DNA of 64,000 nucleotides from an uncultured Bacteroidota bacterium (GTDB lineage: Bacteria; Bacteroidota; Bacteroidia; NS11-12g; UBA9320), in assembly GCA_937124965.1 (NCBI GenBank), contig CAKZLB010000059.1:1-64000 (forward strand), written 5' to 3'. This document shows, in pieces, positions 238 to 6,701 of this stretch. The first letter of the stretch is position 1; every line of letters begins with the position of its first letter. The notes beneath the pieces are model-generated. The model was not told the origin of the DNA, ran no database searches, and worked only from the letters and a program-made list of their open reading frames with translations. A program made the translations under genes and the position numbers.

Positions 238-362
238 AGAACCTTCTGATTAAAAAGGATTTAGCAAAGCTCGTTGACGACTCCTATCTTGAAGTTGCGG
301 CCAAGAATCTAGGCTATAAAAGTGTTGAAGAATTAAAAAAAAACTTAAACATAAAGCCTTGA
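216..362 (+). pseudogene. IS3-family orfA, 3' remnant
   Basis: This frame is open from just after a stop at 213-215 to the TGA at 360-362 and encodes about 48 residues ending in VEELKKNLNIKP. It is helical, with leucines spaced like a coiled coil, as in the C-terminal zipper of IS3-family OrfA proteins, and it directly precedes an IS3 orfB. The N-terminal helix-turn-helix that OrfA needs to bind the element ends is missing and no start codon is present. The element is therefore 5'-truncated and probably cannot move by itself. The identity as orfA rests mainly on position and frame. Confidence 0.55.
338..344 (+). promoter_or_regulatory. Putative -1 programmed frameshift site of the IS3 element
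   Basis: In the orfA frame the sequence reads A AAA AAC, a classic -1 slippery heptamer, inside a run of nine A. The orfB frame lies exactly at -1 relative to orfA and is open back through this site, so slippage would give an OrfAB fusion, the usual IS3 transposase. The downstream structure that often stimulates slippage was not examined. Confidence 0.5.
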
Positions 363-1219
363 TGATTAGCATGGAAAACAAACAGAACAAGCGTCCTTTT
401 AGTATACAAGAAGTATGCAGTGGGTTTGACTTAAACCGAGACGCTTTTTACAAGTACAAAAGAAGGTTCACGAAACAAAATACTATAAACGACCAGGTAA
501 TCCAGTTGGTTAAAAATAGTCGAAAAACATTACCAAGGGAAGGCACTAGAAAACTACTAAAATCACTTAAAACCGATTTTGACAAAAGACACTTAAAAAT
601 CGGTAGAGACCAGTTGTTCAATATTTTACGGGAAAACAATTTATTTGTGAAACGCAAAAAGTACTCCTGTAGAACGACCAACTCCTATCACCGCTTTTAC
701 AAGTATAAAAACATAATCAAAGACCTTAAAATAATACGTCCTAATCAAGTTTGGGCTTCTGACATAACGTACATCAGAACCGTCAATGGCTTCTGTTACT
801 TAGCACTGATTACGGACATGTATTCGCGCAAAATTGTTGGGTATGATCTCAGTGATACTCTTGAACTATCTGGATGTTTAAAAGCTCTTAAAAAGGCCGC
901 CTATCAGAACAAAAACATCAAAGAGTTAATCCATCATTCTGATAGAGGGATACAATATTGCAGTAATGTGTACACTAGTGAGCTTATTAGAAAAAATATC
1001 CTTATCAGCATGACCGAAGAAAATCACTGCTACGAAAATGCTTTAGCTGAAAGGGTTAACGGTATTTTGAAAGATGAGTTTTATCTTGATCAAACGTTTA
1101 CTTCAATGATGCACGCTAAAAAAGCAACAAAAAACGCTATCAAACTTTATAACTCTAAAAGATTACATCTATCTTTAAACTTTAAAACACCAAATTCTAT
1201 CCACATAAATGCCGCTTAA
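359..1219 (+). CDS. IS3-family transposase OrfB (DDE)
   Basis: This 286-residue protein is full length for an IS3 OrfB. An N-terminal HTH_21-like region covers about residues 12-110, followed by an rve-type integrase core. The catalytic triad is visible as D135 (SDITYI), D195 (HHSDRG) and E231 (NALAERVNG); the D-to-E spacing of 35 residues is the DD35E signature. It would catalyse strand cleavage and transfer as the OrfAB frameshift product. Residue 1 is a TTG; ATG codons follow at 362 and 371, and the true product is probably made by frameshifting from orfA. Because orfA is truncated, activity in cis is doubtful although all catalytic residues are kept. Confidence 0.93.
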   Translation: MMISMENKQNKRPFSIQEVCSGFDLNRDAFYKYKRRFTKQNTINDQVIQLVKNSRKTLPREGTRKLLKSLKTDFDKRHLKIGRDQLFNILRENNLFVKRKKYSCRTTNSYHRFYKYKNIIKDLKIIRPNQVWASDITYIRTVNGFCYLALITDMYSRKIVGYDLSDTLELSGCLKALKKAAYQNKNIKELIHHSDRGIQYCSNVYTSELIRKNILISMTEENHCYENALAERVNGILKDEFYLDQTFTSMMHAKKATKNAIKLYNSKRLHLSLNFKTPNSIHINAA

Positions 1220-1270
1220 TTTTTATTAATAACATGTAGCCGTATTTTAGGACGTGACATAATGCGCTAC

Positions 1271-1410
1271 AACGGTTCCTGCCTATGCGTAGTGCGGGTT
1301 TTAATTGTTATATGTTTTTGGGAAACGGAATTGTTGGTTGCTCTTGCAACCAAAAACCGCGTCACCGTTTTGGTAGTAAGATGCGAGCATTACGTATAGG
1401 CAGTGTTAGC
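1271..1410 (-). repeat. Cassette-boundary palindrome A (attC-like)
   Basis: A 17-base left arm at 1279-1295 (CTGCCTATGCGTAGTGC) pairs with 1387-1403 (GCATTACGTATAGGCAG): 15 Watson-Crick and two G-T pairs. Inside lies a perfect 8-bp hairpin (TTGGTTGC/GCAACCAA, 1334-1353) enclosed by AAACGG/CCGTTT. The outer edges are AACGGTTCC (1271-1279) and GTTAGC (1405-1410). The stop codon of the next gene is only 5 bases from the element. Read on the minus strand it lies directly downstream of that gene, where an integron cassette keeps its attC. It does not match the strict IntI core consensus, so the name is by analogy. Confidence 0.6.
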
Positions 1411-1415
1411 AAACG

Positions 1416-2909
1416 TTAAAGAACGACGATTTTTCTATTAATAATTTGCCCTTCGGAGCTCGTTATTCTTATGAAATATATACCATTGTAACCGTTCATA
1501 TCCCACACCACGTTTCTCTTATTGGTGTTTTGAGACTTAATTTGATGCCCATTTAAGTCAAATAGCTCTATAAGTGCGTTTTGGTTAAATCTCATTGCAT
1601 CAATATACAATAGACCTTTAGCAGGGTTTGGAAATATCTTAAAATTTGATAAATCAACATTTTCAATACCTAAAGATTTATTCATGTATACCTTGATATA
1701 TCCAGAATCTCTATCATTATAATGTGAATGTTTTTCTGTCGAACCAATGCACAAATAACTACCATTTTGACTAAACGCTATACTGCCGTCTTTGTAATTG
1801 ATATCGGCATAGAAAGACTGCACTGAGTCCCAATAATCAACAGATCTTTGATAAATTTCAACTCGAAGTCCTCTTTCGCCTTGGTACAATATATTTCCAG
1901 GTATACCAATTGCTGCAACTTTGCCGTTTGGGCTCATTTTTACAACAGAACCTAAAAAGTCCCCTGAATCACCACGAACAGTACCGGCTTCAAGTTTCCC
2001 TAAAGAATTTTCGAATTTGAAGAAACAAGCGGCGCCTTCCGGTGACCCATCAGTAGATATTTGCGCAAACGGTGCTCCAATAATTAAGCGATTACCTTCC
2101 TCAGAAATAGAAACTGAATATCCAAAGTGGCTATCAAAAGAATCCAGTGAAAACAGGTTTTGTCCGCGTAATTGCCAAGAACCGTTTGTTCGTTTGTATG
2201 TAACTACCCTACCACTACCAATACTTGAACTGTCAATGTAATTGTACGATCCAATGACTAAATACCCACCGTTTCCAGCTAAATCACAACTATACCCAAA
2301 CGCTTCATTGTAAGAGCTTCCTTTAAAAATTTGATCGATCACCCATCGATCATCTTCAAGACGGTAAACATTTAGTCGGCCTATGACGCTTCCTTGTTCC
2401 TTGAAACCTGTTTCCCCAACGGCTAATAATTTACCATCATGACTTAGGTCAATTGAACGTCCTAATCTACAATTTTCACAGGCACCTGTTATTGTTTGAC
2501 CAACGACGTTCCATGAATTATTCAACCACTGGTAGACATGGACTTCTCCCGCATATTTTACAGTATCACCAGCCCAAGCCCCATTTGCACCGACAGCAAT
2601 AACAGAACCATCGCCACTTATGGCTACAGAAGCCCCGAACAAGTCAACATTGGCCACACCAGTTATATCCTCACCTTTTCTAATCCAGTTTTGACCAACT
2701 TTGGTGTAAACTTTTATTTTTCCCCGTCCAGAATAGTAGCCTTCACAACCAACAATCATTGTTTTTCCATCCGATGATAAGGCTAATGAAGTTCCACATT
2801 CTTCATGTGGTTCACCACCGATAGATGCTTCTTCTGTCCAGTTTTGTCCGAATACCGAACTAGAGGTTATCATTAAAAGAATGGTAACGAATGAATTTAA
2901 ATTTTTCAT
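1416..2909 (-). CDS. Secreted beta-propeller (FG-GAP-like) protein with T9SS sorting domain
   Basis: I chose the ATG at 2909 (497 aa) because it gives a clean signal peptide ending at VFGQ; a longer frame to 2999 would run through a palindrome. The mature protein has about seven repeats of roughly 55 residues of the type LALSSDGKTMIVGC, AISGDGSVIAVGAN and DLSHDGKLLAVGET, as in integrin-alpha or FG-GAP-like propellers. The last 75 residues (FKIFPNPAKGLLYID onward) form a type IX sorting domain. It is predicted to be exported and anchored or released at the surface; ligand unknown. The gene stands alone between two palindromes, with 10-bp inverted repeats on its flanks, and looks like a mobile cassette. 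Confidence 0.8.
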   Translation of the reverse strand: MKNLNSFVTILLMITSSSVFGQNWTEEASIGGEPHEECGTSLALSSDGKTMIVGCEGYYSGRGKIKVYTKVGQNWIRKGEDITGVANVDLFGASVAISGDGSVIAVGANGAWAGDTVKYAGEVHVYQWLNNSWNVVGQTITGACENCRLGRSIDLSHDGKLLAVGETGFKEQGSVIGRLNVYRLEDDRWVIDQIFKGSSYNEAFGYSCDLAGNGGYLVIGSYNYIDSSSIGSGRVVTYKRTNGSWQLRGQNLFSLDSFDSHFGYSVSISEEGNRLIIGAPFAQISTDGSPEGAACFFKFENSLGKLEAGTVRGDSGDFLGSVVKMSPNGKVAAIGIPGNILYQGERGLRVEIYQRSVDYWDSVQSFYADINYKDGSIAFSQNGSYLCIGSTEKHSHYNDRDSGYIKVYMNKSLGIENVDLSNFKIFPNPAKGLLYIDAMRFNQNALIELFDLNGHQIKSQNTNKRNVVWDMNGYNGIYFIRITSSEGQIINRKIVVL

Positions 2910-2924
2910 ATTTTTTGATTTAAT

Positions 2925-3000
2925 GTTTGCTAACGGTTCCGGGTATGAGGCGTAGCTTGGAATGTGCGCAGGCTTTGAGCGGCTATGACTTATACCCAAC
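2925..3000 (-). repeat. Cassette-boundary palindrome B (attC-like)
   Basis: GGGTATGAGGCGTAGC (2941-2956) pairs with GCTATGACTTATACCC (2982-2997), with 13 Watson-Crick pairs, two G-T and one mismatch. It is preceded by AACGGTTCC (2932-2940), identical to the edge of palindrome A, and by GTTTGCTAAC (2925-2934), the exact reverse complement of GTTAGCAAAC at 1405-1414. It lies upstream of the propeller gene on its coding strand. The other edge abuts a truncated radC fragment. Confidence 0.6.
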
Positions 3001-3206
3001 CTAAGATTGTCTTTCAGTTTGCACTAAAGTTAAATGCCTCAGCAATTGTGCTTGCTCATAATCATCCGAGTGGTAATTTAACACCTAGTAATGCAGATGA
3101 ATCGTTGACTCAAAAGATTAAAGAAGGAGGAAAGCTACTGGACATACAGTTATTGGATCATTTGATTTTGACTTCTGATTCGTATGGTAGTGTAAATAGT
3201 TCATAG
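3000..3206 (+). pseudogene. RadC-family (JAB/MPN) C-terminal fragment
   Basis: About 68 residues match the end of RadC-type proteins: the metalloprotease-like signature AHNHPSGNLTPSNAD (HxHPxGxxxPSxxD) followed by LLDIQLLDHLILT. Family members are about 150-230 residues, so the N-terminal half is missing. Homology starts immediately after palindrome B; the only upstream ATG (2985) lies inside the palindrome arm. The C-terminus (SYGSVNSS) also departs from the usual ending. RadC proteins are common on mobile elements; their biochemical role is unsettled. This copy is most likely dead. Confidence 0.85.
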
Positions 3207-3773: not shown

Positions 3774-5276
3774 ATGAACTTCAAATCAACTCTTGTAACC
3801 GCAATTTTAATTTTTACTTTCTCATTAGGTTTCTCCCAATCCGTTACAAAAGGTCTTATTGGATACTGGCCGTTTAACGGAAACGCCAACGATGAAAGTA
3901 TCAATAACAATCATGGAAAAGTCACAAACGCGACACTGACTCTTGATAGGTTTGGAAATAAGAATTCAGCATACATTTTTGATGGTAATGGAGACTATAT
4001 AGATTGTGGAGACAGTGCAAACCTTTTTGTCTCGACTAATACTACTAATTTTTGGTTTTTGTTTGATGATACTACTAAAATTCAACATTTCGTAAATTGT
4101 ACTAACTCCGATAGTGGAGAATGGGGAGTAAACTATTACCATCATTCTGCATCCAGCGGAGGAGGTATTATCTCAGGATTAAGCGGCGGTTCAAATGATT
4201 CATGGATCGCAGCGGCTACATCTAGGAATTTTAGATATGCTGACAGTACATGGCACATGTTTACCTCGACCTACTCGGCTAAAGATAATTCTTTAAGATT
4301 TTATCTGGACGGATGCTTTGTTTCCAACATTACAGCTCAAAGAAAAGGATTTGTAAATGGTAAGGATAGTTTAAGTTTTAATAATAAAGAACATTGGGTA
4401 TACGGTATTAGGAGCCAATATTTAACTTCAAGTACTGGTAGTCCAGGTTATCTCGATGGCTGCCTAGACGACATAGCTTTGTACAACCGAGTATTGAGCC
4501 AAGTTGAGATTAAAGAACTGTATAATGGAAGAGTATACTACGACACCACTAATGTTTTCGACACCACATACATTAATGACACGACATTCTATAAGACATA
4601 TGATACCACGAATGTTTTCGACACAACTTACATTAATGACACAACATTCTATACGACCTATGATACAACTATAGTCTTTGACACAACATTCGTTAATGAC
4701 ACAACTTTTTATACCATCTACGACACAACCAAAGTAACAATATACGACACGACCAATACAACAATATACGATACAACCAATATAATAATCTACGACACAA
4801 CTAATATAACGATCTATGACACTACTAGTATTCCCATCTATGACACTACATATATCTCAATAAATGATACCACATTCTTTCGGGTCTATGACACAACTAG
4901 GTTAACGATCTATGATACAACTCGAATTACGATTAATGATACGGCAATTCACCAGGATACATTCTATTTAGCTGTTACAGATACGCTTTACATAAAATCA
5001 TACTTAAGTTCCGGGTCTACAAATTCATGCGTAATAAAAATGTACCCAAACCCAACTAATGATGCAATTACTATAATAAACGGGTCTTTTTGTTCAATGT
5101 TAGGTTATACCTTAACCATTGTTGATGATAGAGGTAAATTAATATACAAGACCGCTATTTCTAATAAAACGCTTTCAGTGGACCTCAAACAATTCGCGGC
5201 AAACGGACTGTATTATGTGAGCTTGACGGATGCTAAGGGGAAAATGGTAAGTCAAAAGAAAATTATTCTTTATTAA
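3774..5276 (+). CDS. Secreted LamG-domain protein with YDTT repeat linker and T9SS sorting domain
   Basis: This 500-residue protein starts with a signal peptide (cut after SLGFSQ). A LamG/concanavalin-like beta-sandwich fills about residues 25-250: GLIGYWPFNGNANDES, DGNGDYIDCGD and LDGCLDDIALYNRVLS are typical. Residues 256-387 are a threonine- and aspartate-rich repeat linker built on YDTT. The end (CVIKMYPNPTNDAITI to KKIILY) is a type IX sorting domain. It is probably a surface carbohydrate- or protein-binding protein. The next gene is a close paralogue with a much shorter linker, so the linker has expanded or shrunk since duplication. A -7 box 18 bases upstream supports this ATG. Confidence 0.85.
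   Translation: MNFKSTLVTAILIFTFSLGFSQSVTKGLIGYWPFNGNANDESINNNHGKVTNATLTLDRFGNKNSAYIFDGNGDYIDCGDSANLFVSTNTTNFWFLFDDTTKIQHFVNCTNSDSGEWGVNYYHHSASSGGGIISGLSGGSNDSWIAAATSRNFRYADSTWHMFTSTYSAKDNSLRFYLDGCFVSNITAQRKGFVNGKDSLSFNNKEHWVYGIRSQYLTSSTGSPGYLDGCLDDIALYNRVLSQVEIKELYNGRVYYDTTNVFDTTYINDTTFYKTYDTTNVFDTTYINDTTFYTTYDTTIVFDTTFVNDTTFYTIYDTTKVTIYDTTNTTIYDTTNIIIYDTTNITIYDTTSIPIYDTTYISINDTTFFRVYDTTRLTIYDTTRITINDTAIHQDTFYLAVTDTLYIKSYLSSGSTNSCVIKMYPNPTNDAITIINGSFCSMLGYTLTIVDDRGKLIYKTAISNKTLSVDLKQFAANGLYYVSLTDAKGKMVSQKKIILY
4539..4934 (+). repeat. Coding tandem repeat (60-nt x3, then 24-nt units)
   Basis: Three 60-base units (4539-4598, 4599-4658, 4659-4718) encode YDTTNVFDTTYINDTTFYKT and close variants. 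They are followed by 24-base units from 4719 encoding YDTT plus four residues (KVTI, NTTI, NIII, NITI, SIPI), one double-length unit at 4839-4886, and two more units to 4934. The paralogue at 5547 retains only about two units. Codons for Asp and Thr vary between units, so the array is old or under selection at the protein level. Confidence 0.85.
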
Positions 5277-5546: not shown

Positions 5547-6701
5547 ATGACTATGAAAAATTTCTTTACTACCTCAATCTTACTTTTATCTTTCTCTTTC
5601 GGATTTTCTCAATCGATAACAAAAGGTCTAATCGGATATTGGCCGTTTAATGGGAATGCCAACGATGAAAGTATAAACAACAATCATGGCACGGTCACAG
5701 GTGCAACGCTTACGGAAGATCGATTTGGTAATAAAAACTCGGCATTTCTATTCGATGGAAATGGTGACTATATTGATTGTGGTGATAGTTCTAATCTCTT
5801 TATTTCAACTAACACTACAAACTTTTGGTTCTTGTTTGATGATAGTACCAAAATTCAATACTTCGTTAATTGTTCAAGCTCAGCTAATGGAGAATGGGGT
5901 TCACAATATTATCACCATTCAGCATCTACTGGTGGGGGGCTTATTGCTGGTGTTCATGGCGGTTCTAACGATGCCTATCTAGGTTCAATAACCAAAAGGA
6001 ATTACCGTTATGCCGATAGTCTGTGGCACATGTTTACTTCCTGTTATTCTGCAAAAGACAATTCAATGAGGTTTTACCTAGATGGATGTTTTGTTGGTAA
6101 CGTTACTCACAAACGTTATGGTTTTGTAAATGGAAGAGATAGCCTAGTATTTAATGGAAAAGAACACTGGATGTATGGTGTGCACAGTCAATATATTACA
6201 TCTGGCGCTGGTTCACCAGGCTACCTGTCCGGATGTTTGGATGATGTGATGCTATTTAACAGAGTGCTATCTCCTTTAGAAATATCAGAACTTTACTCTA
6301 GTAAGATTTACAGTGACACAACACGTGTGACGGTTTATGATACGAGTTATGTCACAATAAATGACACCACTTTCCATTACGACACAGCTTATGTCTCGGT
6401 TACAGACACACTTTTTATTAAATCATATTTGAATACAAGTTCCACAAATCCATGTGTGATAAAAATGTATCCAAATCCAACGAATGACATAATTACTATT
6501 GACAACGGTTCAGCATGCATGAATTTAGGTTATCAAATAACAATCGTTGATGATTTAGGGAGATTGGTTTATAAATCGACTATTACGAATAAAACGTTGA
6601 CCGTGAATTTAAAACAATTTACGTCAAATGGTCTCTACCTGGTTTCACTAAACGATTCAAAAGGAAAGATTGTCAGTAGAAAAAAAATAATACTCTACTA
6701 G
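5547..6701 (+). CDS. Secreted LamG-domain protein with short linker and T9SS sorting domain (paralogue)
   Basis: This 384-residue protein is a tandem paralogue of the gene at 3774. It has a signal peptide ending near FGFSQS, a LamG-type sandwich to about residue 255 (same GLIGYWPFNGNANDES opening and LSGCLDDVMLFNRVLS close), a short linker with YDTS, NDTT and YDTA, and a nearly identical type IX sorting domain ending in KKIILY. It is predicted to be surface-exposed; the ligand is unknown. ATG codons occur at residues 1 and 3; the promoter spacing favours 5547. The main difference from its neighbour is the loss or absence of about 95 residues of YDTT repeats. Confidence 0.85.
   Translation: MTMKNFFTTSILLLSFSFGFSQSITKGLIGYWPFNGNANDESINNNHGTVTGATLTEDRFGNKNSAFLFDGNGDYIDCGDSSNLFISTNTTNFWFLFDDSTKIQYFVNCSSSANGEWGSQYYHHSASTGGGLIAGVHGGSNDAYLGSITKRNYRYADSLWHMFTSCYSAKDNSMRFYLDGCFVGNVTHKRYGFVNGRDSLVFNGKEHWMYGVHSQYITSGAGSPGYLSGCLDDVMLFNRVLSPLEISELYSSKIYSDTTRVTVYDTSYVTINDTTFHYDTAYVSVTDTLFIKSYLNTSSTNPCVIKMYPNPTNDIITIDNGSACMNLGYQITIVDDLGRLVYKSTITNKTLTVNLKQFTSNGLYLVSLNDSKGKIVSRKKIILY

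Follow-up and report, generated by a model that had tools for sequence, protein, structure and literature searches.

Is the lone minus-strand gene near the left end of this DNA a mobile cassette and, if so, what would move it? The window, that is the whole 64-kb stretch analysed, is the start of contig C59 of a 4.09-Mb Bacteroidota genome assembled in 79 contigs (G000). An earlier note had proposed that the gene is packaged like an integron cassette. It described two bracketing palindromes, exact inverse boxes flanking the gene and recombination at GTT, with no integron in sight and an unknown recombinase. The sequences and coordinates that it gave are all present: AACGGTTCC at 1271-1279 and 2932-2940, GTTAGCAAAC at 1405-1414 and GTTTGCTAAC at 2925-2934 of the window sequence. 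The cassette reading itself is supported genome-wide, and the observation was correct and under-sold. We consider it very likely that the gene belongs, as one of its circularisable cassettes, to an integron-like system widespread in Bacteroidota, recombination being inferred from the sequence and not observed. The features concerned are as follows.

1273..2933, minus strand: complete cassette, from the TT of the upstream GTT to the G of the downstream GTT; the cut G|TT is inferred at both ends
1416..2909, minus strand: cassette gene, an open reading frame of 497 aa from its ATG; the protein has beta-propeller repeats of FG-GAP type and carries a C-terminal sorting domain for type IX secretion
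2925..2934, minus strand: R' box of the window cassette, GTTAGCAAAC on the gene strand
1405..1414, minus strand: R'' box of the window cassette, GTTTGCTAAC on the gene strand; R' is its perfect reverse complement
1271..1407, minus strand: attC-like site from AAC to GTT (spacer, 15-bp L stem, variable centre, L', GGAACC, GTT)
1264..1273, minus strand: R' box of the next cassette, GTTGTAGCGC; in L001 a complete cassette begins with this box
359..1219, plus strand: insertion-sequence transposase (rve core; PF00665, E 4e-20), interrupting the next (GTTGTAGCGC) cassette
2932..2999, minus strand: truncated attC-like site of the short type, left from an upstream cassette that was lost, R'' half missing; matches the full sites L002:5576-5665 and L003:1896-1985
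2985..3206, plus strand: RadC-like JAB-domain gene fragment at the array edge (PF04002 profile positions 48-117, E 3.6e-26)

The protein encoded by the cassette gene is a secreted propeller protein of FG-GAP type that ends in a type IX sorting tail. The outer repeat measures 16 nt and is 94% complementary. At the attC-like site 1271..1407, the bottom strand folds at -27.3 kcal/mol vs -20.9 for the top. A covariance model built from 39 long sites of this genome recognises this site at 128 bits (E 2.1e-27), the site being one of the 39 used in training. An Rfam search at the window sites returned nothing relevant. One point of the earlier description is corrected: the right-hand palindrome is the truncated site at 2932..2999 and does not fully match the left one in build. 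The truncated site abuts the radC fragment. We propose that the copy in the window marks where an array fragment ends, the array having been cut by rearrangement into radC on one side and into an insertion sequence on the other. Next to this edge, 3774-5276 and 5547-6701 encode a pair of secreted paralogues that both have type IX sorting tails, one of them carrying long DTT-rich repeats.

The inverse boxes exist as sequence, and were dropped as stand-alone evidence: counting both strands, the window contains 24 perfect inverted pairs of GTT+7 spaced 150-3000 nt apart, and the 10-nt pair GTTAGCAAAC/GTTTGCTAAC is one such pair. The motif GGAACCGTT occurs at 4 sites in the window, with a partner only for the one at 2934. 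The pair gains significance only when it is taken together with the hairpins and with what the remaining genome shows.

Genome-wide, GGAACCGTT was found 63 times vs 22 for a reversed control pattern, clustering in short contigs composed of consecutive cassettes. The covariance model matched about 65 related recombination sites. Between consecutive sites, the 10-nt start (GTT+7) and the reverse complement of the end matched perfectly, that is at all seven variable letters, in 42 of 58 intervals; shuffled pairings of starts and ends gave a mean of 1.5 perfect matches and a maximum of 6 in 2000 trials. Within a single site, whose halves belong to different cassettes, a full match was seen in only 2 of 70 cases. 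This is the rule expected of circular cassettes. The inferred cut after the G of GTT and the origin of R' and R'' from the same cassette both hold across the genome, in support of the earlier interpretation. The permutation result also contradicts a reading of the palindromes as dispersed repeats whose boundaries are unrelated to recombination.

Most exceptions to the rule come from ten copies of one geneless cassette with an imperfect pair. Duplicated cassettes have bodies that are mostly 85-100% identical, and most of their neighbours are unrelated (about 50% identity, no more than random alignment gives). Some cassettes begin with the same box and have unrelated bodies. It is because of the same-cassette rule, together with duplicates elsewhere that share bodies and not neighbours, that we delimit 1273..2933 as a cassette. 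Solitary attC-like sites were also seen outside the dense arrays (C74:118601, C67:52718, C13:87315, C49:24118 and C72:52226); these may be insertions at secondary sites.

The sites resemble attC: by folding energy, the bottom strand was the more stable in 39/39 long own sites. Their 15-bp stem was unbroken in all 39, with two stem columns changing on both sides in a compensatory way. At other loci (20 sites, 19 loci), unrelated stem sequences paired without a bulge over 12-26 bp, and wobble bias in other genomes pointed to the bottom strand in 17 sites, as opposed to 2 in which it pointed to the top. The earlier note had suggested looking for extrahelical bases like those of attC. None was found in the outer (L) stem, either in own sites or in sites from other genomes; a conserved G.T wobble is present instead. 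It lies exactly at nt 15 from the R box (after AAC) in 39/39 own sites, at columns 22-125, and in 25/25 sites from other genomes, 16 in a first comparison and 9 held out. At this position the top strand has A opposite C and the bottom strand T.G. Elsewhere in the stem the G.T rate was 7%, nt 10 showing a wobble in 12/25. Most R boxes do not fit GTTRRRY (GTTAGCA, GTTGTAG); a few do (GTTAGGC).

The claim that no integron was in sight must be corrected: a recombinase, an attI-like site and an array are present on other contigs of the same genome. Among eight matches to the phage-integrase family, one is a protein of 395 aa (C13:654319-655506). Its gene is followed after 87 nt by an attI-like site, GGATAAAAACAAG|TT, and then by the first cassettes, the whole occupying C13:654319-656861. 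The link between the window array and this platform lacks a physical join, as the assembly breaks at repeats.

The recombinase, formerly described as unknown, is an XerA/IntI-like tyrosine recombinase without the I2 helix and is not a member of the IntI family. About 45-50 residues that form the additional domain of IntI1/IntI2 are missing from it, and this domain (I2/patch III) is absent from all aligned members of its family. Against TIGR02249 (cutoff 265), the protein scored 196 bits and its family 191-208, compared with 509 for the IntI1 control; the alignment consisted of two stretches broken where the additional domain begins. In IntI4, residues 179-249 were left unmatched by the alignment. 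No protein of the whole genome passes the IntI model cutoff. The best-scoring NCBIfam model was archaeal XerA (NF040815, cutoff 220), at 235.7 for the own protein; of seven further members, four scored above the cutoff and three below it, at 198.6-217.3. In a tree from which sparsely filled columns had been dropped, the Bacteroidota recombinases grouped in a clade of their own (99/96), separate from both IntI1/2/4 (100/100) and the Xer proteins, and the separate Xer-like proteins of the genome (L010, L012) fell outside it. Some branches were long and the deep order is unsure. A structure search ranked XerA first and IntI4 (2a3v) right after; the AlphaFold model used as query was weak (pLDDT 72, pTM 0.48), and only the ranking was retained. 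About 100 residues precede the SAM-like domain (L011:850-1200). This region is present family-wide, has no convincing Pfam match and might be a domain for the folded site.

Relatives of the recombinase were found across the phylum, in agreement with the proposal of a Bacteroidota cassette system. A family member was present at E <= 1e-60 in 13 of 39 genomes searched (own genome included), and at E <= 1e-95 in 61 of 296 sampled Bacteroidota genomes, or 40 of 140 genera. Twenty further relatives, mostly lower-scoring, yielded attC-like sites in eight loci; for many lower-scoring recombinases no cassette was found in the stretch read. A plasmid copy in Chryseobacterium oryzae (L063:11998-13671, NZ_CP094530.1) adjoins an attI-like site; a VOC-family cassette and a degenerate cassette end were seen there. 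With the first 210 aa of the recombinase as query, no plasmid relative was found.

The platform has the following order on one strand: tyrosine recombinase gene, attI-like site, mostly single-gene cassettes. This order was verified next to approximately 30 relatives. The attI-like site, a short imperfect palindrome with the consensus TATAAACAAG|TT, usually lies 70-125 nt downstream of the recombinase stop codon. Of 41 loci for which sufficient sequence was at hand, 21 had an R pair of at least 9 nt for the first cassette within 1.5 kb, 1.5 being expected by swapping. An attI profile trained on 24 of 47 loci placed 38 of the 47 above every one of 34 null windows, and most loci outside the training set were also above the null. 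In a few loci of the first set, a recognisable attI was missing. The sequences themselves show the order of the platform, the boundary rule, the bias to one strand, the absence of I2 and the presence across the phylum.

The cassettes mostly carry a single gene. The longest open reading frame runs with the attC-like site in 37 cassettes and against it in 3, and 18 cassettes have no frame of 50 aa. Among the products are a methylase of the SpoU type, a ParE toxin, a propeller protein and two proteins with, respectively, a PIN domain and leucine-rich repeats. A 7.5-kb cassette (L001:677-8159, contig C9) encodes an HTH-like protein and three methyltransferase/restriction-type proteins (PglXI-like, type IIG-like); it is unusually large and is likely a defence system. 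One geneless cassette, GTTGTAGCCC (126 nt plus site), is present in at least 10 copies (L001, L002, L003, L006, L054) and also lies directly at attI (L011:2122-2251). Geneless Vibrio cassettes have been studied for carrying a promoter (PMC11014356), and by analogy this one could supply a promoter to the array.

We propose the following mechanism. The recombinase would bind the attC-like site as a folded single strand, the bottom one, and cut at G|TT, and the circular cassette would then be inserted at attI or beside another attC-like site. The choice of strand would rest on the G.T wobble together with an asymmetric spacer (about 1 nt vs 4-5 nt), without any docking of extrahelical bases by an I2 helix. 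Action of the recombinase on these sites, use of the folded bottom strand and strand selection by G.T are all inferred; no excision, circle or insertion was observed, and one strain per species was available.

Three other explanations were considered. The one that survives best, unlikely as it is, is XerA-like recombination of double strands on ordinary sites, the hairpin being a by-product of inverted core repeats. The XerA-like recombinase without I2 and the short imperfect palindrome at attI speak for it. Against it stand the greater stability of the bottom strand in 39/39 sites, the bias of G.T wobbles to one strand with one at a fixed position, the conservation of pairing rather than of sequence, and pairing between R' and R'' of the kind that folding of the cassette end would select for. 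A degenerate ordinary integron (CALIN), with cassettes built by a classical IntI since lost and a recombinase nearby only by chance, is very improbable. The architecture, the one-gene and geneless cassettes and the toxin genes are as in chromosomal integrons. However, no protein of the genome reaches the IntI cutoff, the I2-less recombinase adjoins attI in many distantly related genomes, and the sites share a fixed mark at nt 15 in place of outer-stem extrahelical bases. Finally, dispersed repeats (terminators or REP-like) lying between genes and unrelated to recombination are practically ruled out: hairpin folding, position after genes and a few single copies outside arrays fit them, but they cannot alone give a cassette-specific R'/R'' match, nor explain why cassettes are joined to attI behind the recombinase or why nearly identical cassettes sit among different neighbours.

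We thus return to the cassette system, which we regard as a new, I2-less variant of the integron, its cassette excision and insertion being inferred. A bolder reading, towards which the balance tips slightly, is that of a second integron lineage, widespread in Bacteroidota, which would capture folded single strands without I2 or outer-stem extrahelical bases and choose the strand by a fixed G.T wobble; it would represent either a pre-I2 state or a parallel invention. The I2 helix has been presented as the innovation that enabled Xer-like recombinases to act on single-stranded cassettes (PMC7790495), and an I2-less cassette system in about one fifth of the sampled Bacteroidota genomes would reopen the question of integron origins. 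It would also reveal a large unread pool of cassettes (restriction systems, toxins, secreted proteins) and allow a direct test of the roles of I2 and of extrahelical bases.

Integron surveys filter for recombinases that have the IntI-specific domain (PMC9668308, PMC2426708); since the Bacteroidota recombinase lacks I2, surveys filtering in this way would miss the system. For Bacteroidetes, IntegronFinder 2.0 listed In0 elements and, apart from the integrons of Chlorobi/Ignavibacteriae, a single complete integron, that of Salinibacter ruber (PMC9024848). No description of an I2-less Bacteroidota cassette system was found in the open-access literature searched, preprints and subscription journals being outside its scope.

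Compared with known systems, the closest in organisation are the sedentary chromosomal integrons. They share with it a tyrosine recombinase, an attI, arrays of mostly single-gene cassettes, the G|TT boundary and R'/R'' from the same cassette, as well as a better-folding bottom strand, geneless and toxin cassettes and a site type tied to the host. Unlike in these integrons, the recombinase lacks the additional domain (I2) and its gene runs in the cassette direction, R pairing extends over approximately 10 nt, is cassette-specific and mostly does not follow GTTRRRY, and the outer stem has a fixed G.T at nt 15 and no extrahelical base (nt-15 pairing in classical attC sites was not measured). With IntI1, IntI2 and IntI4 the recombinase shares the tyrosine recombinase fold and a nearby branch of the tree; it differs from them by its separate supported clade, the missing 45-50 or so residues of the additional domain and the long N-terminal region before the SAM-like domain. 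Archaeal XerA, XerC and XerD provide the best sequence and structure matches and likewise have no I2. Unlike them, however, the recombinase is not a housekeeping resolvase: it heads a cassette array, in a genome that has separate Xer-like proteins.
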